From assembly GCA_964036195.1 (NCBI GenBank), contig OZ038458.1, positions 19,233,832-19,297,831 of the forward strand: a stretch of DNA of 64,000 nt. The letters run 5' to 3'. Positions 20,201-60,031 of this stretch are shown here, in pieces (the first letter of the stretch is position 1; each line of letters opens with the position of its first letter). The DNA comes from Sphaerolaimus hirsutus (Eukaryota; Nematoda; Chromadorea; Monhysterida; Sphaerolaimidae). The position numbers and the translations under genes were made by a program. Under the pieces are notes generated by a model, which worked only from the letters and a program-made list of their open reading frames with translations, did no database searches and was not told the origin of the DNA.

Positions 20201-23200
20201 ATTTGGAAAATAGGGCGCCAGGCGCCAACGGCGCCAGGATAAAAAAGTGCCTACAACACCATGCGTGTGCTAAAAATGTTTCTACAGCACCATTGTACGC
20301 GCATTCACTTCTTAATTCGCGTTCTCCAGGATGTAATGAACAAAAACAAGGCTAGCAACGACAAAAAATTTGAATAAAATCCACATGACGAATTCAAACG
20401 CAATGGAAATTGTCATTTGACAACAATCCATTCATTACAAATAGACCTTTCCAAACAATGTTTCCTAATTGCAACGATTTAAATCCGTTTATTTATGATT
20501 TTGCAAGTTCGTCGGTCCATCATTCCTGTCTTCTGATCCGTCAGACAGATCTGATGAACCGTTGGACGAAAGATTTCCACCCACTTTCCACCACTCCGTC
20601 CATTTTTCTGGCGAATTTAGATGTTCCACGGATGCGTTTTTAATTTTTTTTTCGTTTACACGGCACTCACCGTGAAACCCTGCTGGCGCCTTTTTGGCGC
20701 CCTTCTAAAGCAGGGCGCCAGGCGCCAAGGGCGCCACGGAAAAAGGGCGCCAAGCGCCAATGGCGCCATGGCGCCTTTCAGAATGTGGGCGCCAGGCGCC
20801 AAGGGAGCCACAGAAAAAGGGCGCCAAGCGCCAATGGCGCCATGGCGCGGCGCCCTTTGGCGCCCTCAAATGGCGCCAGCGCCATGGCGCCATTCCATCA
20901 CTAATCACGACCAAAGCCATTACTTTTATCACAAATAACTTAAAGCTGGTGCCAGTTACGCAAGTGGTAAAGTAAAAAAAAAAACTTTCCTCTTCACTCT
21001 ACTCTTTAATTTTCCACTTATAAAAAATAAGATTTGGATACACAGCTGACACTTTGGGACTGCCCCCTGGTGCCGTTTCCACGAGTGTGAAATAAAAGAG
21101 TAGGGTGAAGAGGAAAGTTTTCCTTTTTACTTTACCACTTGCGGAACTGGCCCTGTTTTCCAGCTTTCAAATTAACAACATTTTGTCTCATGTGCGCTGC
21201 GCCATCTGCGACCACACCAACCTCATTAATTATGGGTGGCAGACTGGTTGTATAAAGTCCTATAGACACCATCAAAGCGGACAGCAGCAAACAAAGCACT
21301 GTGTGCAGACGGGAGCACCTGCGGGTGAACTAATTTCCATGCAACATGTGAATAATTGCAGACAAAAGCTCAAGGAAAAAAGCGTGTACAGACCAAATGA
21401 GTCTATGCGGCCATGACGATCTCACATTCACGTCAGTATCCCAATCAATTCTGCAAAAAAATTGAAATAAAATGATAATTAGCGGGCAATAATGTTCTGG
21501 GAGTGCACTGCTACACATAAGCAAAGCATGGTCTATTTGATTACCATCGGGGAGCTCCAAATTTTCAAGAAAAAATGCAAATGATAATAGAAAATGTAGG
21601 CAAATCGCCGCGCCAAAGACAGGTAGCCGCCAACCTCCTCCTACTGCACCACTGGAAAATCCAGTCCACCTACAAACAAACAACCAGGGGTTTTGTAGAT
21701 TTTGACCCCCGCGGGGGTTCATATACATAGCAAATCGCTCCTCAGGAGGGATAGGTAGCTGAAAAATTTTCTGGGGGGGGGGGGTTGGGGGGGGGGTTCG
21801 CGGGGGTTCAATATATATAGGCAGAAGGGAGGAAAAGGAGAAAAATCGCTAAAAGTAGGTGAAAAATGGCTACAAATGGGTATATAAGGACATCTAGTAC
21901 TAAAATGGCTGATCAAAAGCAGTTAGACACATGAACTAGTGATTTTGGAGGTGAAAATCTATATAAGGGTATGAAAAATAGCGATTTTGAGAGAAAATTA
22001 GCGTATGGTTTCTGAAAAATCGCTCCAGGTAGATAGATAGCTGACCGATTTGGGAGGGGGGGGGGTTAGGGGATAGTAGCCCAAAATTTTGCCTTCGGGA
22101 TAGATAGATAGCTGGCGGATTTGGGGGGGTTACCCCCCCTAATAAAACCCTGCAAACAACCCATCAAAAGTCGCGCCAACCTCCTAGCGACGGCATTCAA
22201 GCAGAGCTCCAGCAAGGTCGCTCCCAACGTCAACGCAGTCATGTGGATGTACAGCGCCACCGCCAAGAAACACATCAGCGCCAGCCAATGGGGCTCGTCG
22301 CCCACCAGGAAATAGAACAGGGTGAGGCAAAAGTGCGCCAGACACAGCCACAAAAGGGTGAAGGATTTGATCAGGTCGCGGCGCCAGTGATAGTTGGCGT
22401 CCGGTGTGGTAGATCGCTGGAATCGTGATTGAGGAATTGTATCTCCAATATCTAAGGCACCCACAGAAACTGTAGAATGTCATGTAAAGTGTAAAAAAGC
22501 ACGTACAATCTCAAGTGAAATGTCAAATTTACTTTTCTTTTTTTTGTCGGGATTTGAGGGTCTGAGAATGCACCAGACAAACGGTTTGTGACTCCCATCG
22601 GTCACTTGCGAGAAATGCTTAAAAAGCCACTTCTCAAAACCAAAAACCAACACTACCCATCACTGTTCCCACTAGGGATGGAAAAAGCGCTTTTTTCAAC
22701 GGCCCCGCTTTATTTTTTTAAAAACGCGCTTTTTTCAAAAATGTCGAGACGTTACCTAAAAAGCTCCCCAAATATGGTTCTGGGTCAATATATAAAAGTT
22801 ATAAGAGAAGGCTAATACATTGAGACTGATGTTTCACACTGTGGAAAAGTGTGTGGAAGCACATTGGCTAGATATTAAATACTACACTGACATATCGCAA
22901 CTTATTTTTACATCATAGCTTGCAGGAATCAAAGGAATGCCACTAAAAATGCTTTAAAACCAATTCAAACCATCACCAATGGTAATGTGCATGTGAAATT
23001 GCGCGCTTGCGCGCAAAAAATTGCAAAATACCTAGTGCATGAGTACCAAAAATTTTGCAACCGCTTTTTTAAAAAAAATGCGCTGGGACCCTTGCGCTTT
23101 TTAAAAAAAGCAGAGTTTAAAAAAAGCGCTTGAAAAAAAGCGCCGGCCATCCCTAGTTCCCACCCAACAAACCCCCAAAACTATCCCCAACAAAACCGAC

Positions 23201-24493: not shown

Positions 24494-35527
<11,034 letters not shown>

Positions 35528-37378: not shown

Positions 37379-37965
37379 CGCGAATGTTTCTAATGGGGAT
37401 TTCCACCTCTGTACGCTCCTCCTACTTAATACTGCTGGGCGTTTTGCCAAAAGCAACTATTTTGCACGTTTTATCTAAAAGACAAAACGCGCAACCACTG
37501 TCGCAATCATGTGACCAAAAAATTGGACACACGACCACGACAACCCCCCATCCTATGCACCAGGGGCCACTGGTCGGGAACACCCCCTACATAAAAATAC
37601 AATCCCAATATAGGAGGTAGAACCCTATATTGAGTCTAGGTGCAGACCCAAGTGGGTCTGACTTGAGCTCTGGCTGTCTAGGGAGCTGGTTTTATACTGG
37701 GTGGGTGACAGAGGTTAGAGCAGTTACACTAACACAGTGGGCGGAGCCTGCATGCAAGCTCTGCAAGCAAGCTGCTTTCAGGGGGCAGTCCCAGATTCTG
37801 TTAACTGCAAAGTAAGATGTCAAATGTCATGCAGTGTCAATTATCATGACAAATGCAAAGTAAAGTGTCAATTGTCACGCAAATTTAAGTAATAAAATAT
37901 TCTTTTATTGATTGACATGACATTTGACATTTGAGATTTGACATTTTACTTAACACTGTACATGG

Positions 37966-38094
37966 TCTGGAATTGGCACCAGCTGGCTCTGTTTGGACAT
38001 GTTTGCTGTGGTCTGGAATTGGCACCAGCTGGCTCTGTTTGGACATGTTTGCTGTGGTCTAGAATTGGCACCAGCTGGCTCTGTTTGGACATTT
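37966..38094. repeat. 46-bp tandem repeat, about 2.8 copies
   Basis: Unit starts GGTCTGGAATTGGCACCAGC and ends TTTGGACATGTTTGCTGT. The unit begins with the right terminus of the GGTGCCACTCCC family, so the array probably arose by tandem duplication of the element's edge plus its flank. Confidence 0.85.
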
Positions 38095-38350
38095 CAAATG
38101 CAAAGTCAAATGTGAAATGTAAAGTAAAGAGTAAAGTGTCAAATGTAAAGTAAAATGTGAAATGTAAAGAAAAGTATGAAATGTAAAGTAAAGAGTAAAG
38201 TGTCAAATGTAAAGTAAAATGTGAAATGTAAAGAAAAGTATGAAATGTAAAGTCAAATGCAAAGTCAAATGTCAAATGTAAAGAAAAGTGTCAAATGTAA
38301 AGTCAAATGCAATGTCAAATGTAAAGTCAAATGTAAAGTAAAGTGTCAAT
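38095..38350. repeat. Tandem AAATGTAAAGT minisatellite
   Basis: More than 20 irregular units of AAATG(T/C)(A/G)AAGT(A/C). The same AAATGTCAAATGTAAAG motif builds the interior of the palindromic family, so this looks like an expanded internal segment of one element. Confidence 0.8.
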
Positions 38351-38475
38351 TGTGTATCCAAATCTTATTTTTTGTATCCAAATCTTATGTTTTTTTTTGT
38401 ATCCAAATCTTACTTCGAAAAGTAAGATTTGGATACAAAAACATAAGATTTGGATACAAAAAAATAAGATTTGGA
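38350..38475. repeat. Palindrome of ATCCAAATCTTA units
   Basis: Three TATCCAAATCTTA(T/C) units on the left are followed, after TTCGAAAAG, by three inverse TAAGATTTGGATACAAAA units. The structure could form a perfect hairpin. A single TAAGATTTGGATACAC copy also occurs at 21030. Confidence 0.8.
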
Positions 38476-39826
38476 ATAAATAAAAAATAAGCTTAAAATG
38501 GTTAGTAGGCCTAAGCTTAAAATGGTTAGTTGGGCTAATTTTTTACCTAAGCCTAAGCCTAAGCTTAAGCCCAAAATAGTGAATTTTCCTAGAAAGTAGT
38601 TGGTAGAATAAAGAGAACACGTTTCATTAAAAAAGAAAACACGTTTCGTTAAGCTTTTTACTTTACCTGTAAAAAACCCACTTGTATATTGTCACCATCC
38701 CAAAAAGAGTCGTCAAAAAAGCGTATAGACATGAAAAAACCTTTCTAATGGCCGAAAATCAGGCGAAACCAATTTTCTTTATATTTTTTGTATCACGGGT
38801 CAGTCGTGGGATTGTTCTGGATATTGCGAGTTGTTTTTTACCCTTATTTTGATCTCAGCTGGAGAAATACGGCTTTCTTTGCAGCGATAAAATTTACGAA
38901 CGTGATGCAGGAATCGAGCACGTCGTATTCTACATAATTTGGCTCAATTGCCGGCATGGCAATTTTTCTTTCGGGATGTTACGTTTTTCTCGTACAACTG
39001 TTTCCATCAATGTTTCGTAATCCGTTAAGTTCCGCACTTTTGCCACCGAATGGATCATTTTTCATCTCCATCAACAGTAGTTGACTGAATCCTTATATCG
39101 GCAAACACAATTGCATTAAAACAGAATTATCAGATCAGGGGACAGTCCCGCACCCTGTTAAGTGTGAAGTAAAATGTGAAATGTCAAAAAAAAGATTTGC
39201 CCGACATTAGACACTTACAATTTTCAATTTACACGGTGCGGGGCTGCCATCTGGGAGTATTTATTGTAAACTAGTGCGTGTAGGTTCATTGGTGCACTAT
39301 ACACTGAAAGGATCGGGTCACGTATGAACACTTGGCCCTCAGCCCAGTTACCATTTGCGTGTTATACGAACGAGAGTGAAAGCTCAAAGTTAGCTTAAAA
39401 TCGCTCAAATTTACTCCACTTTGCAAATTTTCACATTGATAATCGCTATTTTCGTTTATATACATGGTTATAGAGCTAGTGTTAGCCTATTTTATTTATA
39501 TTTTTAACTGATTTCGGAATTTTGTACGGCTGCCAAGTTCTCACTACGCTCGCCAAGTACGGGGACTCTTCCCACTGAAAATTTCTGCGCGTTTTTGCGC
39601 CGTCGGAACTGATACGGAAACAAGAAAAAAGTGCTGAGTGCAAAATATGATTAAAACATTTCGGAAAATCACTGGCGGCCTTTTTCGACATAACTAAAAA
39701 AACATTAATACCGCTTTTGAGTTATCAGTTCCACGCAAACGTAAATGAAATTTTCAGTGTGTGGTGCGCCATTCCCAAATTTTCTAATCAGAGCTATTCC
39801 CTTGCAATTTTCCCAGAGCACAAAAA

Positions 39827-48291: not shown

Positions 48292-49503
48292 ATGGGTCGG
48301 TCTCGTTCGCGTCGCAGCCGCCGCCGTTCGATGCACAACGGCCGCCGGCGGGCCAATGCCAATCACAATGCCGCCGCGGCACACAATGTGGATGTGGATG
48401 TTGGGAATTTGGGGTGACGCCTGGCGCTTAAAAAATACACTTTTTCGCGCCGCTTGACGTCGCACTTTCAGACGGCGTTCACACTGCATTTTTGTGAAGG
48501 CTCCGACAACACTTGAAAAAATTCCATAAGTTGAGTGAAAAGTTCCATATTCATGAGTGAATGTGGCAAAGTATACATATTACCTAGGTGTATATGCATG
48601 TCAAATTTTAGATGAATCGTGTGTGTTGCTCAAGAGTTATACATGTTTTAAAAAAATTCGCCACTGTCGGAGCCCGACAGGTGCGCCAACAAAAAAAAGA
48701 AAAGTGGTCGTCACATTGCGCGAGTGTAACGACGAGTAAAATATTTGATCTAGTCGTCACAATGAGCGTGGTTAAAAAAGGGATCGCTATTTGTCGCCAA
48801 AAACGAGGCCGACCAGTCGTCACACTCATGAAAATCTGCTAAAAATAGATTTGTCATCACAAGTAAGATTTGACGAGTATGATCTATTGTCGTCACACAA
48901 GTGCAGTGTGAAAGGGGCCTTAGAGAGTGGATGTTGTCCACTTTGTGCACCGATTGCCAACACACCCACTAGTTAACCAACATGAAATGCTCGATATTTT
49001 GGTAAACTGTTTTGACAAAGCAGTACGAAACACTGTATGGAGCTGTACGGTGTTTCGTACTGTTTTGTCAAAACAGTTTACCAAAATGGTCGAGCATTTC
49101 ATGTTGGTAGACCAGTGTGTGTAGGCCCATTGTGAAAAATCAGCCACTGCAAAAATTTCGTCCACCATTACTAAAAGGATTGCGGCCTATGACGCCATTT
49201 ATGTTGCACGTCCTATTCGGTGCGGTTATCAGTTGACAAATGCCGTAATGTATTTTCAACACCACTGGCGCCAGCCTCTCAAAAGTGGCGCCTTCCCCGA
49301 TCCACCAGTGTCAGAACTGCCACATCCACACTGCGAATGCACCGGTACCACCCCCGCCCCCACCCCAAGAAATGCCGCAGCCCCCGGCTGGCTTTTTGCG
49401 TAGATTTCTGGGCAATGTGCTGCCATTTTCCAAGGAAGAAATGAGTGCGATCGCTGTGGGGATGCAGGGATCGCTCGATAACGGGTTGGAAATTAATATT
49501 TAA
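48292..49503 (+). CDS. Putative small basic protein, 2 exons, function unknown
   Basis: Exon 1 opens at ATG 48292 with MGRSRSRRSRRRSMHNGRRR and an Asn/Ala/His-rich stretch. It uses GC-rich third positions, and three in-phase donors are possible near 48387-48400. If unspliced it stops at 48415-48417 (41 residues). Exon 2, 49309-49503, follows a CCACCAG acceptor in phase 0. It encodes CQNCHIHTANAP, a run of seven prolines, then FLRRFLGNVLPFSKEEMSA and a TAA stop. The total is about 100 residues. The CxxCxxH motif could bind a metal. I do not recognise the family; other frames of both exons are also open. An intronic palindromic MITE lies at 48957-49123. Confidence 0.42.
48957..49123. repeat. 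Palindromic fold-back MITE, copy 1
   Basis: Near-perfect 167-bp palindrome. The left arm CACTAGTTAACCAACATGAA continues through GCTCGATATTTTGGTAAACT; the right arm is its complement ending ATGTTGGTAGACCAGTGTG. The arms meet at CTGTATGGAGCTGTACGG. A sibling copy is at 52494-52652. Confidence 0.88.
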
Positions 49504-50086
49504 GTTACATTGAAACATAGGTAATTACCGTATTACCTCGAAATACCCCCAGGGGGTTTATTATTTCGCCAGCAAAATTTGAGGGGGGATAATTCGAGGG
49601 CGGGGTCTATTATTTCGCCAGAAATTTTCGGAAATTACCCATACTCAGACGTAGAAAAATCAAACAATTACATAATGTATATGTGTTTATAGGCATACAT
49701 AACTGTGTATACACATAAACCCTGCCCTAACGTCACTCAATCATCAGTTTTAACGTGTGTTCTGCATTGTACAGATGACAAACTGTGGTATTTGTCATGT
49801 ACATTCGCTTTACACTCAATATTAGGGGGGGGGATTTCGAAAGGGGGGGGGTTATTATTTCCTCAGCCGAATTTTAGGGGGGTATTTCGAGGGTTAATTC
49901 GAGGTAATACGGTAGGTAGGATACAATTACAAGGCATTATAAATCTAGTCCTCCTAGGATACAGACCTCCTATCCAAATGCTGTTTTCTTATTATCGGGT
50001 AACTTCACTAATATTTTAAAAAACGTAGTAAATGTAATAATGAATGATAAAACGTGACCAAACTGAACAAATGCGCCTTTTGCAGT
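49504..50086. other. Spacer before GIPC with an ACCGTATTACC family repeat
   Basis: 49527-49915 is an element with ends ACCGTATTACCTCGAAATAC and GGTTAATTCGAGGTAATACGGT, internal GGGGGATAATTCGAGG units, and a mid-section with GTATATGTGTTTATAGGCATACA. The rest (49916-50086) is the presumed GIPC 5' region. Confidence 0.6.
49527..49913. repeat. ACCGTATTACCTCGAAATAC inverted-repeat element
   Basis: TIRs of about 20 bp (ACCGTATTACCTCGAAATAC and the complement of CGAGGTAATACGGT with preceding GGTATTTCGAGGGTTAATT). A TA dinucleotide flanks both ends (TTACCGT ... ACGGTAGG), which would fit a TA-duplicating superfamily, though I cannot prove it. Confidence 0.75.
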
Positions 50087-53000
50087 ATGGCCGACCCGTG
50101 CAGCAGCGCCGCACGCGGTACAGAAGCTGCCACCGTGCCAACAGGTGCCACTCCCAGACCCTGTGAAATGCCCTGTAAAATTTATAATGTCATGCAAAGT
50201 CTCAAATGTCATGAAAAATGCCCTGGCCAATGGAAAACGAACGTTTGCAGTGTCCCAGGGCATTTTACATGACTTTTAACACTTTGCATGACATTCCACA
50301 TTTTACAGGTAGATAATTTCACAGGGTCCGGGACTGCCCCAGCCCCAGTGCGACGGACGCGCGGCGGCGGCTCACGCGGTAGGCGGCGCGGCGGCCGCCG
50401 GCGCAATGTGCACCAGTTCAATGTGCAGTCGGGCGGCGCGCAGAAACAGTCGGCCAGCGCGCGCAGGGTGTTCTGCCAGCTGGCCCAGGGCGGCCCTGTG
50501 GTCGTTTTGAGGAATGTCGCTGTGGGTTATGTGCAACGATGGAAAAAAACACAGAAATTGAACACAGAAACTCATTGAGTTTCTGTGTTTTTGTTTTACA
50601 CAGAAACACGGAAACTCACAAATTTTGAAAAACTCAAAACTCAAATGAGTTTTTTTTTGGAGAACACAGAAACACAGAAACACGGAAACACAGAAAAGTT
50701 TTTTTGTGTTTTTTTTCAGCGAAGTGGTTGAACACATTTTCAGAACGCACATGAATTCAGTTAAACTAAACAAGATAAGATATGCATGTATAGCATGTAA
50801 ATATGTACATAATGTATTCATATTTTATGTTGGAACAAAAAATAAATTAAAGATGGCATGCACATCTCCTGGTGGACATGTTTAAATATAGTTGTAGTTC
50901 AAATCAATTCTGTGGTCTTCCATGGGGATCAGAAATCAGAATTTTTCCTGTTCCTGTAAATCAGAATTTTTTTGGGGAAAACTCGAGTTTTAACAAAAAA
51001 CACAGAAATAAAAACAGAGTTACTCAAGTTTTTTTCGATAAAAAAACTCAAAACACAGGTATTCATTTTTGAAAAACTCAAAACACAGAAAGTGTTTTTT
51101 GTGGAGAACTTACCCATCGTTGGTTATGTGCGGTTTGAAGGGTACATGGCTGCTAGACTATATTTATTGCCTGCAAGCATTCCTAGAACCGTGTGGAATG
51201 TCAAATGTCATGCAGAGTGTCAAAAGTAATGGAAAATGCCCTGCAAAATGGCAAACGTGTGTGCCATTTTCCAGCGCATTTTATATGATTTTTGACACTG
51301 CGTGACATGTGACATTTTACACTGTCTGGGATTGGCACCTGATGTGCGTCGTGATATTTATACTGCTGCAACTAATGGGCATGATATTTACCTACCTGTT
51401 ATCCAGCGCTTTTCGACAAAATTACCGAAAACCTACTACATCGACACCCTTCCCCCTCGCAGAACCTGGCCGACCTGTACAACCAGATCGCGAGCGAGTT
51501 CGCCCTGCCCAACGGCGTGGCCAGTCTGCTCTACTGCACCGTGAACGGCGCGCGCTACGACGCCGACAGGGTGGTCGCCAGCGCCGCCACCGCTGCAAGT
51601 CTGCCTGATGGCGCCCTGGTGACTGCGTTTTTGGCTGGTGTGTTGCAACTTGTTCCTGTACGTGAACTGTGTATTGAATGATAATCTTGGCCTCGGCTAC
51701 ATGGATGATAATACCTACATGGAATGACTTCCGCTTTGAATATGTATTACTCTTTTATGGTCCTCCACAGTAGTCGGAGTTTCCGTTCGAGGTAATCACA
51801 AAAAAAGCAAATCAAAACATTTCGATTGTCCAAGGCATAAGAACCCGCCTATTTATTTTCTTAATCACCCAGGGCAGCGAAAACTGATAACAGCCTCCAA
51901 GCCGGCCAAGGATGTCAGCAAAAACTTTGAATTCGGCGTCACAATCGCCGACAACGGCGTGGGCAAGCTGTACGTCAAACACGTCAAGCCAGGCACACTG
52001 GTTACTTGAGTTTTTGTCAAAAATTATGTAGTTAGCCCACTTTTTGTGCAGTCCGATTTATTAAGTGAAATTTGATGTGAAGTTGTCTGAAATTCCTGAT
52101 GCAATACGGTTTAAAAGGGTACCAAACCAAGCTGCAAATTAGAATATCTTACCCGTACATTCCGATTATTAATTAGTCGGGCTTCCCGAAGAACCTTTTG
52201 GCCACACTCAATTACGTCCCTAGGTCTTAATTTCATTGTTGATTATCCCAAACCACCACCACCGCCACTCAGGCGTCAACTCTGTCACCAGCTTTGTCGG
52301 CCGGCGACGCGATCCTCGAGCTGAACGGGCAGAACGTGTCCGGCATGCAGCACTACGCGCTCAGCAAGAGGCTCAAGCAGCTGCCCGATGGGGAGGCGTT
52401 CACGATCAAGTTGTGCCGCCCGCTGCTGAGTGAAGTGAACGGCGGCTGGTGAATTTTGCGTGCAAGATTCGAGTTTTTTTAAAAATTATAGCCAACACAC
52501 TAGTTTACCAATATAAAATGCTCGACCACTTTGGTAACTGTTTTGACAAAGCAGTACGAAACACTGTACAGAGTTGTACGGTGTTTTGTACTGTTTTGTC
52601 AAAACAGTTTACCAAGATTGTCGAGCAGTTCATGTTGGTAAACTAGTGTGTGTGGCCCGATTGTGCGCGATAAGAAAGCACTTCCGAAATCGGGTCTAAT
52701 CGAATGCTTGGCTTCGCGAGACAAGCCAATTTTTTTACGTTAAATGGCGGCTAGTAATGGGAAAAGTAACGCTCACTGTCCGTAACTTCCGGGATTTGAG
52801 GCCGAGAATGACGTCGATAGTCAACTAATGACCTTCCCCCACGAAATACCCCCCTCAAAATGAAATTTGAATTGAAATATTTTCAGCAGCAGCGCACCCT
52901 TGAGTTCTATTGGCCAGTCATCTGCCGCGATGCCACAACGCCTGCTGCCAGCACATTTCAAGAATCTGGACCCAGATGCGACTGTCCGCTTCAAGTTTGT

Positions 53001-55359
53001 CAAATTTCCATAGTTGTGAAAACGTATTTACGTTTACTCGATAAATACGGATACACGCGTACTGCGTAAATACGTTTACGTTTACTCCTGAAAAAATGCC
53101 AGTACTCACTTACTCGCGTACGTTTTGAAAGTACGCGAGTACAGAAAACGTATTTCAAAGGGCTTTTTAATAGGCTTCATCAAGGCATCAAGGCATAAAG
53201 GAAAAAAGGAGAGAAAACCTAAAAATAGAGACAAAATAGCATCAAAATAGGCAAAAACACATTAAATAGTGAATTTGTTAGTGACAAAGTTCGAAAATTA
53301 GTGATTTTGAACAAACATTGGGGCAAAAATTTTCAAAAATACCCACTGTTACGTTTTCCGGGGACAAAAGTAGTTTACTCACATTTACTCATGAGTAAAA
53401 GTAAAGAATCAATACTTTACGTTTTCTGTACTCACCTGTGAGTAAAAAATAAATACTTTATGTTTACGCTTACTTTCGAAAAAGTTCAGTACTTTTAACA
53501 ACTCTGCAAATTTCGCAATCATATATTGACATGTATTGACACACCGATAGAGCTCGAACTGGAAGACCTATTGTTTGTTTCTTTATTAACATGGTCGGGC
53601 TGAAAAGTCCCCGGGCAGTGCTCGCCATTCGCGCTAGGGGTAAGCTACGGTCATAACATTTTAACACGTCAATATATCAGGTGTTTTGAGTTTTCACCCA
53701 AAATTTCACCCCTCTAGCTCCACCCACTGTGGAATTGTGGGGGTTACAATTTCGGTCATTTGTACATCAGTACAAAATGACCGAAATTGTAACCCCCACA
53801 GTTCCACAGTGGGTGGAGCTAGAGGGGTGAAATTTTGGGTGAAAACTCAAAACACCTGATATATTAACGTGTTAAGATTTTATGACCGTAGCTTACCCCT
53901 AGCGCGAATGGCGAGCACTGCCCGGGGACTTTTCAGTCGGACCATGTACATCTGTGTTATGAAATTTTAGAATTTAACTACGTAACATTATACTAAAACA
54001 AAATTAAGTAAAATTTTTATGTAATGAAATTAATCCCATGGCGTATAAACTTTTTTTTCCGAAACCGATTAAACCAATACATATCACAAAAGTTAACCAT
54101 CCTGTTCGATTCTGGTTCACTTTTATCAAAATTTCAGCCCATGATATAAAAAATCGCGCCTTTTCCCAAATACAACTCAAAGCCACGATCTCAGAATGGA
54201 CCAAACGCCAAGTCACCAGTCCATCTTGTCCCCCAACAGCGAGGTGGACGACGAGCTCATCAAGGTGCACAAGAAGGTGGCCAAGCTCATCGACGAGTAC
54301 CTGGGCGTGGAGGATGAACAGCTGGCTGCTGCCTTTTGCCAGCATGGATTGACTGCGCGTTGGTTTTTTTGCACGCTTTAGGGTTAATTACCTATTTACT
54401 GCTTGATGAAAAATGAAAGTTGAAATGACAAATTTCAATGTCTTGAGAGAGTAAAAATACACAGAACGCTGATCCCTAATCTGACAGGTTGAAAGGGTGG
54501 TGCACTTGTACGCACAAATGCCTGGTACGCACAAACGCCCGGTACGCACAAAATTGTGCCCGCCACGCACATCTGCCCGATACGAAATAACATTACATTA
54601 CATTTTGAGCGTGTTTTTCACTTCACACTTGTGAGTGAAGCGAAAAAAAGTTGTGTAATGACATTGATTAACTTTTTGTCACTTCACATATATTTGAACA
54701 TCACTTGAAAAAGTGTCAAGTGAACAAATGGTGGATAATGGCCATTTTTGACCGTTTTTTTCACTTGACACTTTTTCAAGTGATTTTCAGATATCAGTGA
54801 AGTGAAAAAAGCTGTGCAATAACATTAGTGACCATCTGTCCGGTACGCAATGATCATCAGCCATGTATTTAAGTACCGGGCAGATGTGCGTGGCGGGCAC
54901 AATTTTGTGCGTACCGGGCGTTTGTGCGTACCAGGCATTTGTGCGTAGGAGGCCTGGCCCGTTGAAAGCACTGACCAATATCTACCTATATCATGTCCAA
55001 AAAGTATCCAAAAAGCATTTCTCAAGATATGACTTTTATGTCGAGATTTCACCACTTGTCGGCAAATTTCACCTTACATGTCCTTTAATGCCCATTTCCT
55101 AAACCCACCTCTCTTAGGCGACCCGATTTCCTACATCGACGCCGTGTCCAACTCGGTGTCGCTGGCCGCCTTCGACCTGCCTTCCGAGCTGCTCAACGAG
55201 ATTTACGCGGCCGTGCGCGACTGGCAGTGCGGCGCGCTCGTGGCGGCGGAAAAGTGCGATCGTGAAGTAGACGTTAATGATGTTGACGGGGAAAGTGATA
55301 AGTGTGAGCAGGCTGTGAAGTGTGATGAGTATTTTGCCTTCCTCGATGATGCGAACTGA
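50087..55359 (+). CDS. GIPC: GIPC-family PDZ adaptor, 8 exons
   Basis: GIPC proteins link membrane cargo to myosin VI on endocytic vesicles through a GH1 region, a central PDZ domain and a C-terminal GH2 domain. Plus-strand exons: 50087-50144, 50325-50515, 51463-51637, 51873-52000, 52273-52448, 52887-52994, 54195-54358 and 55118-55359. They stay in frame and sum to 1242 nt, 413 residues (human GIPC1 333). Exon 2 gives an Arg/Gly-rich leader and VFCQLAQGGP (human VFHTQLAHGSP). Exon 3 gives NLADLYNQIASEFALP (human NVKELYGKIAEAFRLP), and exon 4 GQRKL and the PDZ start with FGVTIADNGVGKLYVKHVKPG. Exon 5 gives AGDAILELNGQNVSGMQHYALS. Exons 7-8 encode GH2: DDELIKVHKKVAKLIDEYLG ... AAFDLPSELLNEIYAAVRDW. 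The tail after CGALVAAEK is acidic. Exon 6 is the least conserved. Intron 1 (180 bp) is a transposable element (see next entry). I cannot say which GIPC paralogue; it is probably the single invertebrate one. Confidence 0.93.
50136..50340 (+). mobile_element. Palindromic element that supplies GIPC intron 1 (introner-like)
   Basis: Left end GGTGCCACTCCCAGACCCTG starts exactly at the exon 1 junction (G/GTGCCA). The right end GGGTCCGGGACTGCCCC follows ATTTCACAG, so the donor GT is at 50145 and the acceptor AG at 50323-50324. The excised part is 180 bp. The right terminal repeat remains in the mRNA and is read as GSGTAP. The interior is a near-palindrome of CCTGTAAAAT, TGTCATGCAAAGTCT and their complements. 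Both exon frames join in phase 1 only if this AG is used. Confidence 0.78.
50534..51122. mobile_element. hAT-like element filled with ACACAGAAA arrays, GIPC intron 2
   Basis: Ends CAACGATGG and CCATCGTTG with a perfect 8-bp duplication, GTTATGTG (50526-50533 and 51123-51130). The 589-bp body consists of ACACAGAAACTCAAAACTC-type arrays in both orientations around a plain core (50750-50930). No open frame resembles a transposase. The left TSD lies 11 bp downstream of the exon 2 donor. Confidence 0.92.
51184..51345. repeat. Palindromic GGTGCC family element, GIPC intron 2
   Basis: Left CCTAGAACCGTGTGGAATGT, right ACATTTTACACTGTCTGGGATTGGCACC; internal CAAATGTCATGCAGAGTGTC and complement. The left terminus has diverged. 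It sits mid-intron and is probably not used for splicing. Confidence 0.65.
52494..52652. repeat. Palindromic fold-back MITE, copy 2, GIPC intron 5
   Basis: CACACTAGTTTACCAATATA ... CATGTTGGTAAACTAGTGTG with arms continuing through AACTGTTTTGACAAAGCAGT and its complement. Sibling of 48957-49123. It lies about 45 bp after exon 5. Confidence 0.9.
53009..53506. mobile_element. hAT-like element filled with TTTACG/ACTCG arrays, GIPC intron 6
   Basis: Ends CATAGTTGTG and AACAACTCTG (inverted with one mismatch). Perfect 8-bp duplication CAAATTTC (53001-53008 and 53507-53514). Subterminal zones are AAACGTATTTACGTTTACTC repeats; the centre is plain A-rich sequence. The left duplication starts only 7 bp after the exon 6 donor. 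Confidence 0.92.
53588..53950. mobile_element. 360-bp perfect palindrome, fold-back transposon, GIPC intron 6
   Basis: The left arm ATGGTCGGGCTGAAAAGTCC runs about 170 bp and is repeated as its complement ending GGACTTTTCAGTCGGACCAT. The arms meet at GTACATCAGTAC. Arm identity is nearly complete, so the copy is recent. The CGGGCTGAAAAGTCC terminus resembles mariner-type ends from memory; that assignment is tentative. Confidence 0.9.
54515..54949. repeat. Inverted-repeat element with GTACGCACAAA arms, GIPC intron 7
   Basis: The left arm (54515-54582) holds three ACGCACAAA(T/C)GCC(T/C)GGT units and CCCGCCACGCACATCTGCCC; the right arm (54872-54949) is its complement. The middle contains a nested palindrome of TTTTTCACTTCACA and AAGTGTCAAGTGA sequences. 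Confidence 0.82.
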
Positions 55360-58111: not shown

Positions 58112-60031
58112 AAAACCCAATGAAGAATCAAGATCCAATGGAAAATCAAACATCAACAAAGCATCAACACCCAATGAAGAATCAAAATCCAATGGAAAAT
58201 CAAACATCAACAAAGCATCAACACCCAATGAAGAATCAAAATCCAATGGAAAATCAAACATCAACAAAGCATCAACACCCAATGAAGAATCAAAATCCAA
58301 TGGAAAATCAAACATCAACAAAGCATCAACACCCAATGAAGAATCAAAATCCAATGGAAAATCAAACATCAACAAAGCATCAACACCCAATGAAGAATCA
58401 AAATCCAATGGAAAATCAAACATCAACAAAGCATCAACACCCAATGAAGAATCAAAATCCAATGGAAAATCAAACATCAACAAAGCATCAAAAACCAATG
58501 AAGAATCAAAATCCATTGGAAAATCAAACATCAACAAAGCATCAAAACCCAATGGAGGATCAGATTCAAAGAGACCGACAAGTGGAACATCCAGTACAAC
58601 ATCAACCATAGCCAGTATAACGTCAACCAGGGGGCAGTCCCAAACCCTGTAAAGTGCAAAGTAAAGTATCTCAAGTCAATGAAAACAAAAAGAAAACGTG
58701 TTATTACTGAATTTTGCATAACAATTGACACTTTACGTTACATTTGTCATGACAATTGACACTTTGCATGACATTTTACATGACATGTGAAACTTGACAC
58801 TCTACACTTTACAGGGACTGGGATTGGCACCAGTACAACACCAACCATAGCCAGTACAACAGCAAACACACCCAATACAACAATCCTAACATCAGTTGCA
58901 ACAACGAGTGTGCTATCAACTACTCAGGCTACTACTGCTACTACTACTACATACACCTCAAGCACGGCGCACTACACCAGTGGACCCCTGCCATCAAACA
59001 AAACAAGAAACACAACTGGTGCCACTCCCAGGCCCTGTAAAATGCTCTGTAAAATGTCAAATGTCATGCAAAGTGTCAAAAGTCATGTGAAATGCCCTGT
59101 AAAATGACAAACAATTTGGCAATTGACATGACCTACTTTTGACACTTTGCATGACATTTGACATTTTACAGGGTATTTTACAGGGTCTAGGAGTGCCCCC
59201 TGGTAATCTGCCCGGCAACACCTCAAGTTTCACTTCAGCATGTTTGTTTTTGTGTTGAATGATTCTGAGCATATCCATAAAATCCATAAGGATATCCATA
59301 AAATATTCATTTCGGTGTCACAAACATTACTGGCATTAATTAATTGTTTTCTTATTAAATTTGTTGCTTGCGTGGAGATAAACGAAATCTTTTTTTTATT
59401 GCAGCTATGAAGACGACTATGAAAACTACAACTGAAGACGAACAAACAACACTTACATATGACACGACTGAAACAATCACTGTGAGCATACCGTATTTCC
59501 TCGAATTACCCCCAGCCCAGGGGGTTTCCTTTTTCAGAGTGGGAATTTTGAGGAGGGTGAAACGAGGGGGTATTTCGAGGGGGTGTATTATTTCGCCAGA
59601 ATTTTTCAAAAAGGCAAGGTGCAAAAACAAATTTCTACATTTTTTGTTGACACATAAAAATTTTTCTCTTCGCTTTGAAAACTGACTCTAAAATGTAAAA
59701 CGTCTAAAACATTTTACATTTTACCGTGTGCGGGACTGGCTCCTGTACACGTAGTGTACACATAAATACAGGTCCGTTCAGAACAGACGACGCCACCCAC
59801 ACGCAGGTGATCACACGCACTTCCATGAGCATGAGGCCCTACATTCTCGGGCTTGGCGTCACTGGCCTCTCCGTAATGTTGGTAACCGTCGCCCTCGGCC
59901 TCATCATACAGTTTGTGTTCCCGGACAAGTTCACGGGGATCAACAAAAAGAGGTCGATCATTCCAGTTCAAGGTAACAGAGTTTCTGGTAGAAGTGACGT
60001 TGTACTTCCATCGGGAAGCCCAGTGGGGTAA
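58112..60031 (+). CDS. Thr/Ser-rich mucin-like single-pass membrane protein (5' end not found)
   Basis: Proposed exons: about 58112-58620, about 58831-59018, 59405-59481 and 59807-60031. The first exon is a tandem array of 54-bp units, about eight copies, read as an 18-residue repeat containing NEESKSNGKSNINKASTP, then PTSGTSSTTSTIAS. The next exon is nearly all Thr/Ser (TIASTTANTPNTTILTSVAT), typical of O-glycosylated mucin stalks. The 77-bp exon continues TTMKTTTEDEQTTLTYD. The last exon has VITRTSMSMRPY, one strong TM segment (YILGLGVTGLSVMLVTVALG LII...), and a basic-start cytosolic tail ending at a TGA/TAA-class stop before 60032. Palindromic MITEs occupy the regions between exons 1-2, 2-3 and before exon 4. 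The repeat frame was chosen because the other two end quickly or lack S/T bias. The start codon, and whether the exon 1/2 junction uses CCT/GTAAAG, are uncertain. Confidence 0.55.
58114..58556 (+). repeat. 54-bp coding tandem repeat, about 8 copies
   Basis: Unit begins CCAATGAAGAATCAAAATCC and ends CAACAAAGCATCAACAC. Copies are almost identical, so expansion is recent. Because the unit length is a multiple of three, copy number can change without a frameshift. The end units differ (AAACCAATG, CCATTGG), consistent with a decaying edge. Confidence 0.93.
58621..58832. repeat. Palindromic GGTGCC family element in the mucin-like gene, copy A
   Basis: Left GGGGGCAGTCCCAAACCCTGTAAAG, right CTTTACAGGGACTGGGATTGGCACC; flanked by ACCAG on both sides (58616-58620 and 58830-58834 region), possibly a short target duplication. 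Internal GACAATTGACACTTTGCATG units. Confidence 0.78.
59018..59207. repeat. Palindromic GGTGCC family element in the mucin-like gene, copy B
   Basis: Left GGTGCCACTCCCAGGCCCTGTAAAAT, right ATTTTACAGGGTCTAGGAGTGCCCCC, with a duplicated TATTTTACAGGG near the right end. The left GT (59019) coincides with the proposed exon end (ACAACTG/GTGCC), the same donor position as in GIPC intron 1. The acceptor used is more likely the TTGCAG at 59404. Confidence 0.8.
59500..59600. repeat. ACCGTATTTCCTCGAATTAC family fragment
   Basis: CATACCGTATTTCCTCGAATTACCCCCAGCCC, then GAGGGGGTATTTCGAGGGGGTGTATTATTTCGCC. The right ACGGTA end is missing, so the copy is truncated. Lies in the last intron of the mucin-like gene. 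Confidence 0.6.

Follow-up and report, generated by a model that had tools for sequence, protein, structure and literature searches.

The first intron of the GIPC gene in the 64-kb stretch of DNA analysed here (hereafter the window) was probably created by the insertion of a non-autonomous hairpin DNA transposon, of a family generating CWG target-site duplications, into the first coding exon, as judged from the sequence. In agreement with the original prediction, intron 1 is a single copy of a palindromic element, as indicated by its inverted repeat, its fold and its matches to a repeat family. The CAG target-site duplication that flanks the element had been missed in that prediction. The predicted insertion into coding DNA is supported by the duplication on both sides, the GC-rich open frames, the maintenance of the frame upon removal and the GH1 match from exon 2. 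GIPC intron 1 is thus one good candidate for a transposon-made intron, while the generation of introns by the whole family is a separate claim. The features referred to below are listed in Table 1.

Table 1. Features of the GIPC locus and copies of the repeat family within the window.
Feature	Position	Strand	Evidence or remark
GIPC exon 1 (proposed)	50087-50144 (58 nt)	+	ATG at 50087, end CAACAG; GC content, open frame with exon 2, coding score
Left CAG of target-site duplication	50142-50144		last bases of exon 1; flank comparison
Palindromic non-autonomous DNA transposon (MITE), proposed GIPC intron 1	50145-50339	+	GTGCC...GCCC; inverted repeat, fold, nhmmer
Proposed donor CAG/GTGCCA, element-borne	50145-50150	+	score 3.27
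Originally predicted acceptor ATTTCACAG	50316-50324	+	within right terminal repeat; adds GSGTAP; score 4.5, in frame
Right CAG of target-site duplication	50340-50342	+	acceptor for exact excision; score 1.7, in frame
GIPC exon 2, if acceptor is the duplicated CAG	50343-50515 (3' end provisional)	+	GC 0.72; GH1 gain from tail
Other GIPC exons (51463-55359)	51463-51637, 51873-52000, 52273-52448, ~54213-54358, 55118-55359	+	Pfam PDZ and GH2, PDB GIPC1, joins
Family copy	22455-22577		decayed; intron of metallophosphoesterase gene
Family copy	29621-29736		nested in Lon intron; duplication CTG, CTG
Family copy	30100-30246		nested in Lon intron; flanks CTG and TTG
Family copy	37782-37979		duplication CAG, CAG
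Family copy	39139-39250		flanks CAG and CTG
Family copy	51172-51338		nested within GIPC intron 2, with a decayed left end
Family copy	58631-58830		duplication CAG, CAG; interrupts Ser/Thr-rich frame; left end GG, border without GT donor
Family copy	59019-59199		duplication CTG, CTG; starts at predicted donor AACTG/GTGCCA, mucin-like gene
Marginal family fragment	59709-59742		E 0.0066

Structure of the GIPC gene

The GIPC gene lies on the + strand and extends from 50087 to about 55359. The exons downstream of exon 2 are open and joinable, and the protein obtained by joining them matched PDZ (1.5e-9) and GIPC1_GH2 (1.8e-6) in the Pfam search, with GIPC1_GH1 at 23.2 bits, under the cut-off of 28.4. 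The same protein matched PDB chains of human GIPC1 (1.2e-24 and 6.7e-24) and chains labelled mbGIPC, which we take to be those of a choanoflagellate. When a single GIPC exon was used for the PDB search, only one chain was returned, a repeat protein aligned over many weak stretches. Upon joining of exons 1 and 2 to the later exons, the GH1 score increased by 10.7 to 33.9 bits and the match began in the tail of exon 2, indicating that at least this tail is real.

Exon 1 is without homology support, and its coding status is based on composition, the ATG and the frame. The GC content is 0.30 in the 100 nt upstream, 0.69 in exon 1, 0.44 in the element, 0.72 in exon 2 and 0.31 downstream, in agreement with one exon split in two. 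In the proposed frame, exon 1 had a coding score of 6.9 bits, compared with 7.7 bits in another frame, and its best score was equalled by about 1.4% of 1262 intronic 57-mers. The proposed start codon follows an acceptor-like sequence, CGCCTTTTGCAG/T (50069-50087), and an intron in the 5' leader or a trans-spliced leader is possible there.

The element in intron 1 and its target site

The element is a long inverted repeat with 68-nt arms of 81% complementarity, the outer arms of 21 nt being 90% complementary. Folded as single-stranded DNA, it gave a z value of -13.3 against 200 dinucleotide shuffles, none of which folded as well. It covers 98% of intron 1, and its similarity to the family meets both predicted splice borders, with a distance of 0 nt on the left and 3 nt, corresponding to the duplication, on the right if 50342 is the acceptor. 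The empty site, in which 50144 is joined to 50343, reads MADPCSSAARGTEAATVPT-APVRRTRGGG and continues stop-free into GH1; after removal of the element together with one CAG, the two GC-rich blocks are rejoined into a single open frame with nothing added. Read-through of the element as coding sequence was ruled out by one in-frame stop at 50270.

Splice sites of GIPC intron 1

Both borders of the original prediction are present in the sequence, CCAACAG/GTGCCACTCCC at 50144/50145 and ATTTCACAG/GGTCC at 50324/50325, and the join runs from phase 1 to phase 1 as claimed (VPT-GSGTAP-APVRR). The GT claimed for the left end of the element is found in the GIPC copy, although among the family only some ends carry it. 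The AG assigned to the right end also exists, but it is located inside the right terminal repeat and the element continues to 50339.

With the donor at 50144, four acceptors within the scanned stretch are in frame and stop-free, scoring -0.5 (50312), 4.5 (50324), 1.7 (50342) and 8.2 (50348) on a matrix from 13 real acceptors, which themselves scored between -0.8 and 14.9 when each was left out in turn. The addition of GSGTAP, previously given as a fact, is therefore one option among four. Likewise, the attribution of both splice sites to the element itself is not supported as stated, for the duplicated CAG offers an acceptor for exact excision, even though it scores 1.7 against 4.5. Ten of the 13 real acceptors outscore 50324 and 11 outscore 50342. 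An out-of-frame AG at 50308 scores 6.6, above both of these sites; judged from the sequence, its use would place a stop no more than three codons downstream. The donor scores 3.27 compared with 3.1 to 9.1 for 12 real donors, 11 of which are higher. Every site of GIPC intron 1 is on the weak side. These scores come from a partly circular matrix, since one join was picked by eye wherever several were offered, a single possible join being available only for lonA, lonB, lonC, gipc4 and gipc6.

The distance from 50324 to the end of the duplication is 18 bases in the GIPC copy and 19 bases in the three others counted (59019, 58631 and 37782). Acceptor 50324 is in frame because the GIPC copy is one base shorter there; in the other three, the frame would be maintained solely by use of the duplicated triplet, provided that it is CAG. 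This difference suggests that exact excision by the duplicated CAG came first and that use of the inner acceptor may have become possible later.

The following order of events may be proposed. The element, probably mobilised by a putative NuwaI/Harbinger-like transposase, would have landed on a CAG of the first GIPC coding exon. Its terminal GT, placed directly behind this CAG, would have generated a CAG/GT donor, while the CAG duplicated at its right end would have served as the acceptor, so that splicing out of 50145-50342 would have restored the old message exactly. At present the spliceosome may use the duplicated CAG (50342), the upstream ATTTCACAG (50324, with addition of GSGTAP) or 50348.

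The repeat family within the window

The window was searched by nhmmer using a model built from eight copies, which match by construction. Nine loci were counted as elements (E 3.5e-50 to 7.9e-8). The family had been claimed to number at least ten copies in the window; nine are clear, and the tenth is marginal. Six nhmmer rows at 38094-38363 (best E 3.6e-10) were left out because they represent a tract of simple repeats adjoining the 37782 copy. This tract consists of the inner motif of the element (TCAAATGTAAAGTAAA-like) and lies just past the full copy, and the terminal repeat of the family recurs near 38006 and 38052. Exact-match scans of viral_contigs and genome_contigs for the family end returned 0 matches in either set.

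Most copies have one GTGCCANTCCC-like end and one GGGGCANTCCC-like end, and in several of them one end begins with GGG and the other with GTG; a GT at the left end is not universal. The flanking triplets are CWG (CAG or CTG) in 13 of 14 cases for the seven well-ended copies, and in 14 of 18 as drawn when the decayed copies 22455 and 51172 are added, the expectation being 0.028 per 3-mer. At the offset defined by GIPC, the two flanking 3-mers were equal in five of eight copies (chance of at least five with random 3-mers of the window, about 1e-7), a count that includes the 51186 copy in GIPC intron 2 as a mismatch, its left border having been set too far inward; identical flank pairs were found in 5/9 copies. 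As controls, shifting both windows by -1, -2, +1 and +2 gave equal 3-mers in 3, 2, 2 and 2 of the eight copies, and symmetric offsets gave none except for 4/8 at -5, which is inside the repeats.

Other palindromic sequences are present around GIPC. A second family, with nested inverted repeats and a TTTTGACAAA-like core, was observed at 48962-49122 and 52495-52651. In intron 5, a very long inverted repeat (53589-53947; arms of 173 nt, 97% complementary, spacer of 13 nt) resembles a palindromic element of much more recent origin, and intron 6 contains nested inverted repeats (54509-54947), with 85-nt arms of 94% and inner 55-nt arms of 89% complementarity.

The family as a source of introns

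A total of 17 introns were modelled in the window (6 in GIPC, 9 in Lon and 2 in the mucin-like gene), several borders being set by eye. A copy of the family was found in six of them, gipc1, gipc2, lonA, lonB, mucBC and mucCD, the last represented by the marginal fragment; in this count the borders of the two mucin-like introns are off by up to six bases. Only gipc1 is filled by the element, four copies are nested, and the mucBC copy starts at the predicted donor. The element reaches both borders in one of the 17 introns, with the 58631 copy as a further weak lead. With one of 17 introns nearly all element and four containing a nested copy, the claim of an intron-generating family in this animal is not supported as stated.

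That the family is an introner responsible for many introns in this genome, which is not exclusive of the single-intron reading, appears doubtful from the sequence. When a GT end follows a CAG target, CAG/GT...CAG/ arises by construction, and the mucin-like gene supplies second and third leads in the 58631 and 59019 copies. Against this, nested copies are commoner than an intron made of the element, the 58631 copy has a GG border, and frames A to C of the mucin-like gene are negative in codon use. In a more specific and equally tentative form, a MITE of the NuwaI/Harbinger type could be a built-in intron maker in an animal: owing to its CWG target preference and its GT terminus, each copy landing in the right orientation on a coding CAG would yield CAG/GT...CAG/ and exact splicing. 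As part of the same tentative proposal, other orientations would yield GG-AG introns or captured donors, as at 58631 and 59019, and an RNA hairpin would bring the splice sites together.

In the mucin-like region, the Ser/Thr-rich frame is continuous once the 58631 copy is removed. The exon ending in AACTG/GTGCCA at the 59019 copy can be joined in frame to two more exons, of which the last has a hydrophobic stretch. The codon scores in the proposed frames were -22.3, -31.2 and -8.4 for exons A, B and C and 20.8 for D, the frame proposed for the 58631 copy being negative on both sides. With this codon use and the low complexity of exons A to C, the 58631 and 59019 copies are weak leads. The 59019 copy (region 59019-59404) looks like a case in which the donor of a mucin-like intron was captured by the transposon; behind the copy the flank reads CTG/GTAATC, which may be an older donor. 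The Ser/Thr-rich exons at 58834-59973 continue in frame to the exon with the hydrophobic, membrane-like stretch, as in a mucin-like membrane protein, and the reading frame of the last exon gave no Pfam match. Nearby, a 54-bp unit is tandemly repeated 8.3 times at 58115-58562 with 98% matches, and this array is open in frame.

The 22455 copy was considered as a second element-made intron and rejected, the apparent frame at its right end being out of phase with the donor of the preceding exon. An acceptor about 40 nt beyond the copy (TTCCAG/CGATCT) fits the phase, and the copy was thus taken as nested.

Alternative explanations for GIPC intron 1

If exon 1 were not coding, transcription or translation would start elsewhere, for instance at an ATG within the element (50288); the element would then serve as a leader or as the first coding stretch. 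This ATG is in frame with exon 2 and lies past the stop at 50270, and the N terminus of GIPC is too little conserved to check an exon proposed on composition and frame only. On the other hand, the GC-rich block runs from the ATG at 50087 to the target duplication, following DNA with a GC content of 0.30, and few intronic 57-mers equal the coding score of exon 1. We consider such a start to be rather improbable.

The element could also have entered a pre-existing intron at the same place, the remainder of which was then lost. Of the six modelled intronic copies, four sit within larger introns and one at the boundary of an exon and an intron; at the GIPC site, in contrast, one CAG forms the end of the exon while its counterpart directly abuts coding sequence, and at the empty site no more than 6 bases separate the donor from the most distant of the acceptors considered, which is too short for an intron. 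This origin is very improbable. Hardly more probable is a disrupted gene in which the insertion stays unspliced. The weak splice sites and the in-frame stop inside the element would fit a broken copy, but the downstream exons are open and joinable, and the arms have diverged to 81% complementarity, indicating that the insertion is probably not recent. Creation of the intron by the insertion remains the preferred reading.

Comparison with known introners and transposons

In the survey by Gozashti et al. (2022), 548 families accounting for 27,563 introner-derived introns were described in 175 of 3,325 genomes, with only two animal groups among the carriers reported there, copepods being named (PMC9860276). 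The combination of an element-borne donor with a duplication-borne acceptor is described in that paper (Fig. 2C), and so are elements by which residues are added (Fig. 2F). The introners portrayed there resemble GIPC intron 1 in that a short element with terminal inverted repeats and a target duplication fills the intron; they are, however, defined by groups of similar introns, whereas the window has one such intron. The word Harbinger is absent from the main text of PMC9860276, and among the literature records searched for introners together with Harbinger, a single paper, on fungi, was found.

The closest likeness of the family is to NuwaI of the PIF/Harbinger (PHIS) superfamily, which is described as having 3-bp CWG duplications and terminal repeats usually beginning with GGG, and as reported from 16 animal genomes only (PMC4482050). 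The window family shares with this description the CWG duplications; one end of several copies begins with GGG, as is usual in NuwaI, while the other end begins with GTG. In the copepod Eurytemora affinis, introns with GA or GG donors, apparently recent, are described with an obligate AG at the upstream exon end (Robertson 2017, PMC5714493). Such an upstream AG is what a CAG duplication would give, and the left border of the 58631 copy is similar to the GG donors. In E. affinis, the third base of these introns is almost always A, in contrast to G here, and the account of these introns in PMC5714493 makes no mention of a transposon link in the sections available.

The origin of an intron from a transposon is a known but rarely reported route of intron gain in animals. 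If only GIPC intron 1 was made by the element, it would be a good example of a rare transposon-born intron, and no more. A clear animal case with a known 3-bp target rule would make the coding sites of intron gain predictable, and this prediction would be testable by counting.
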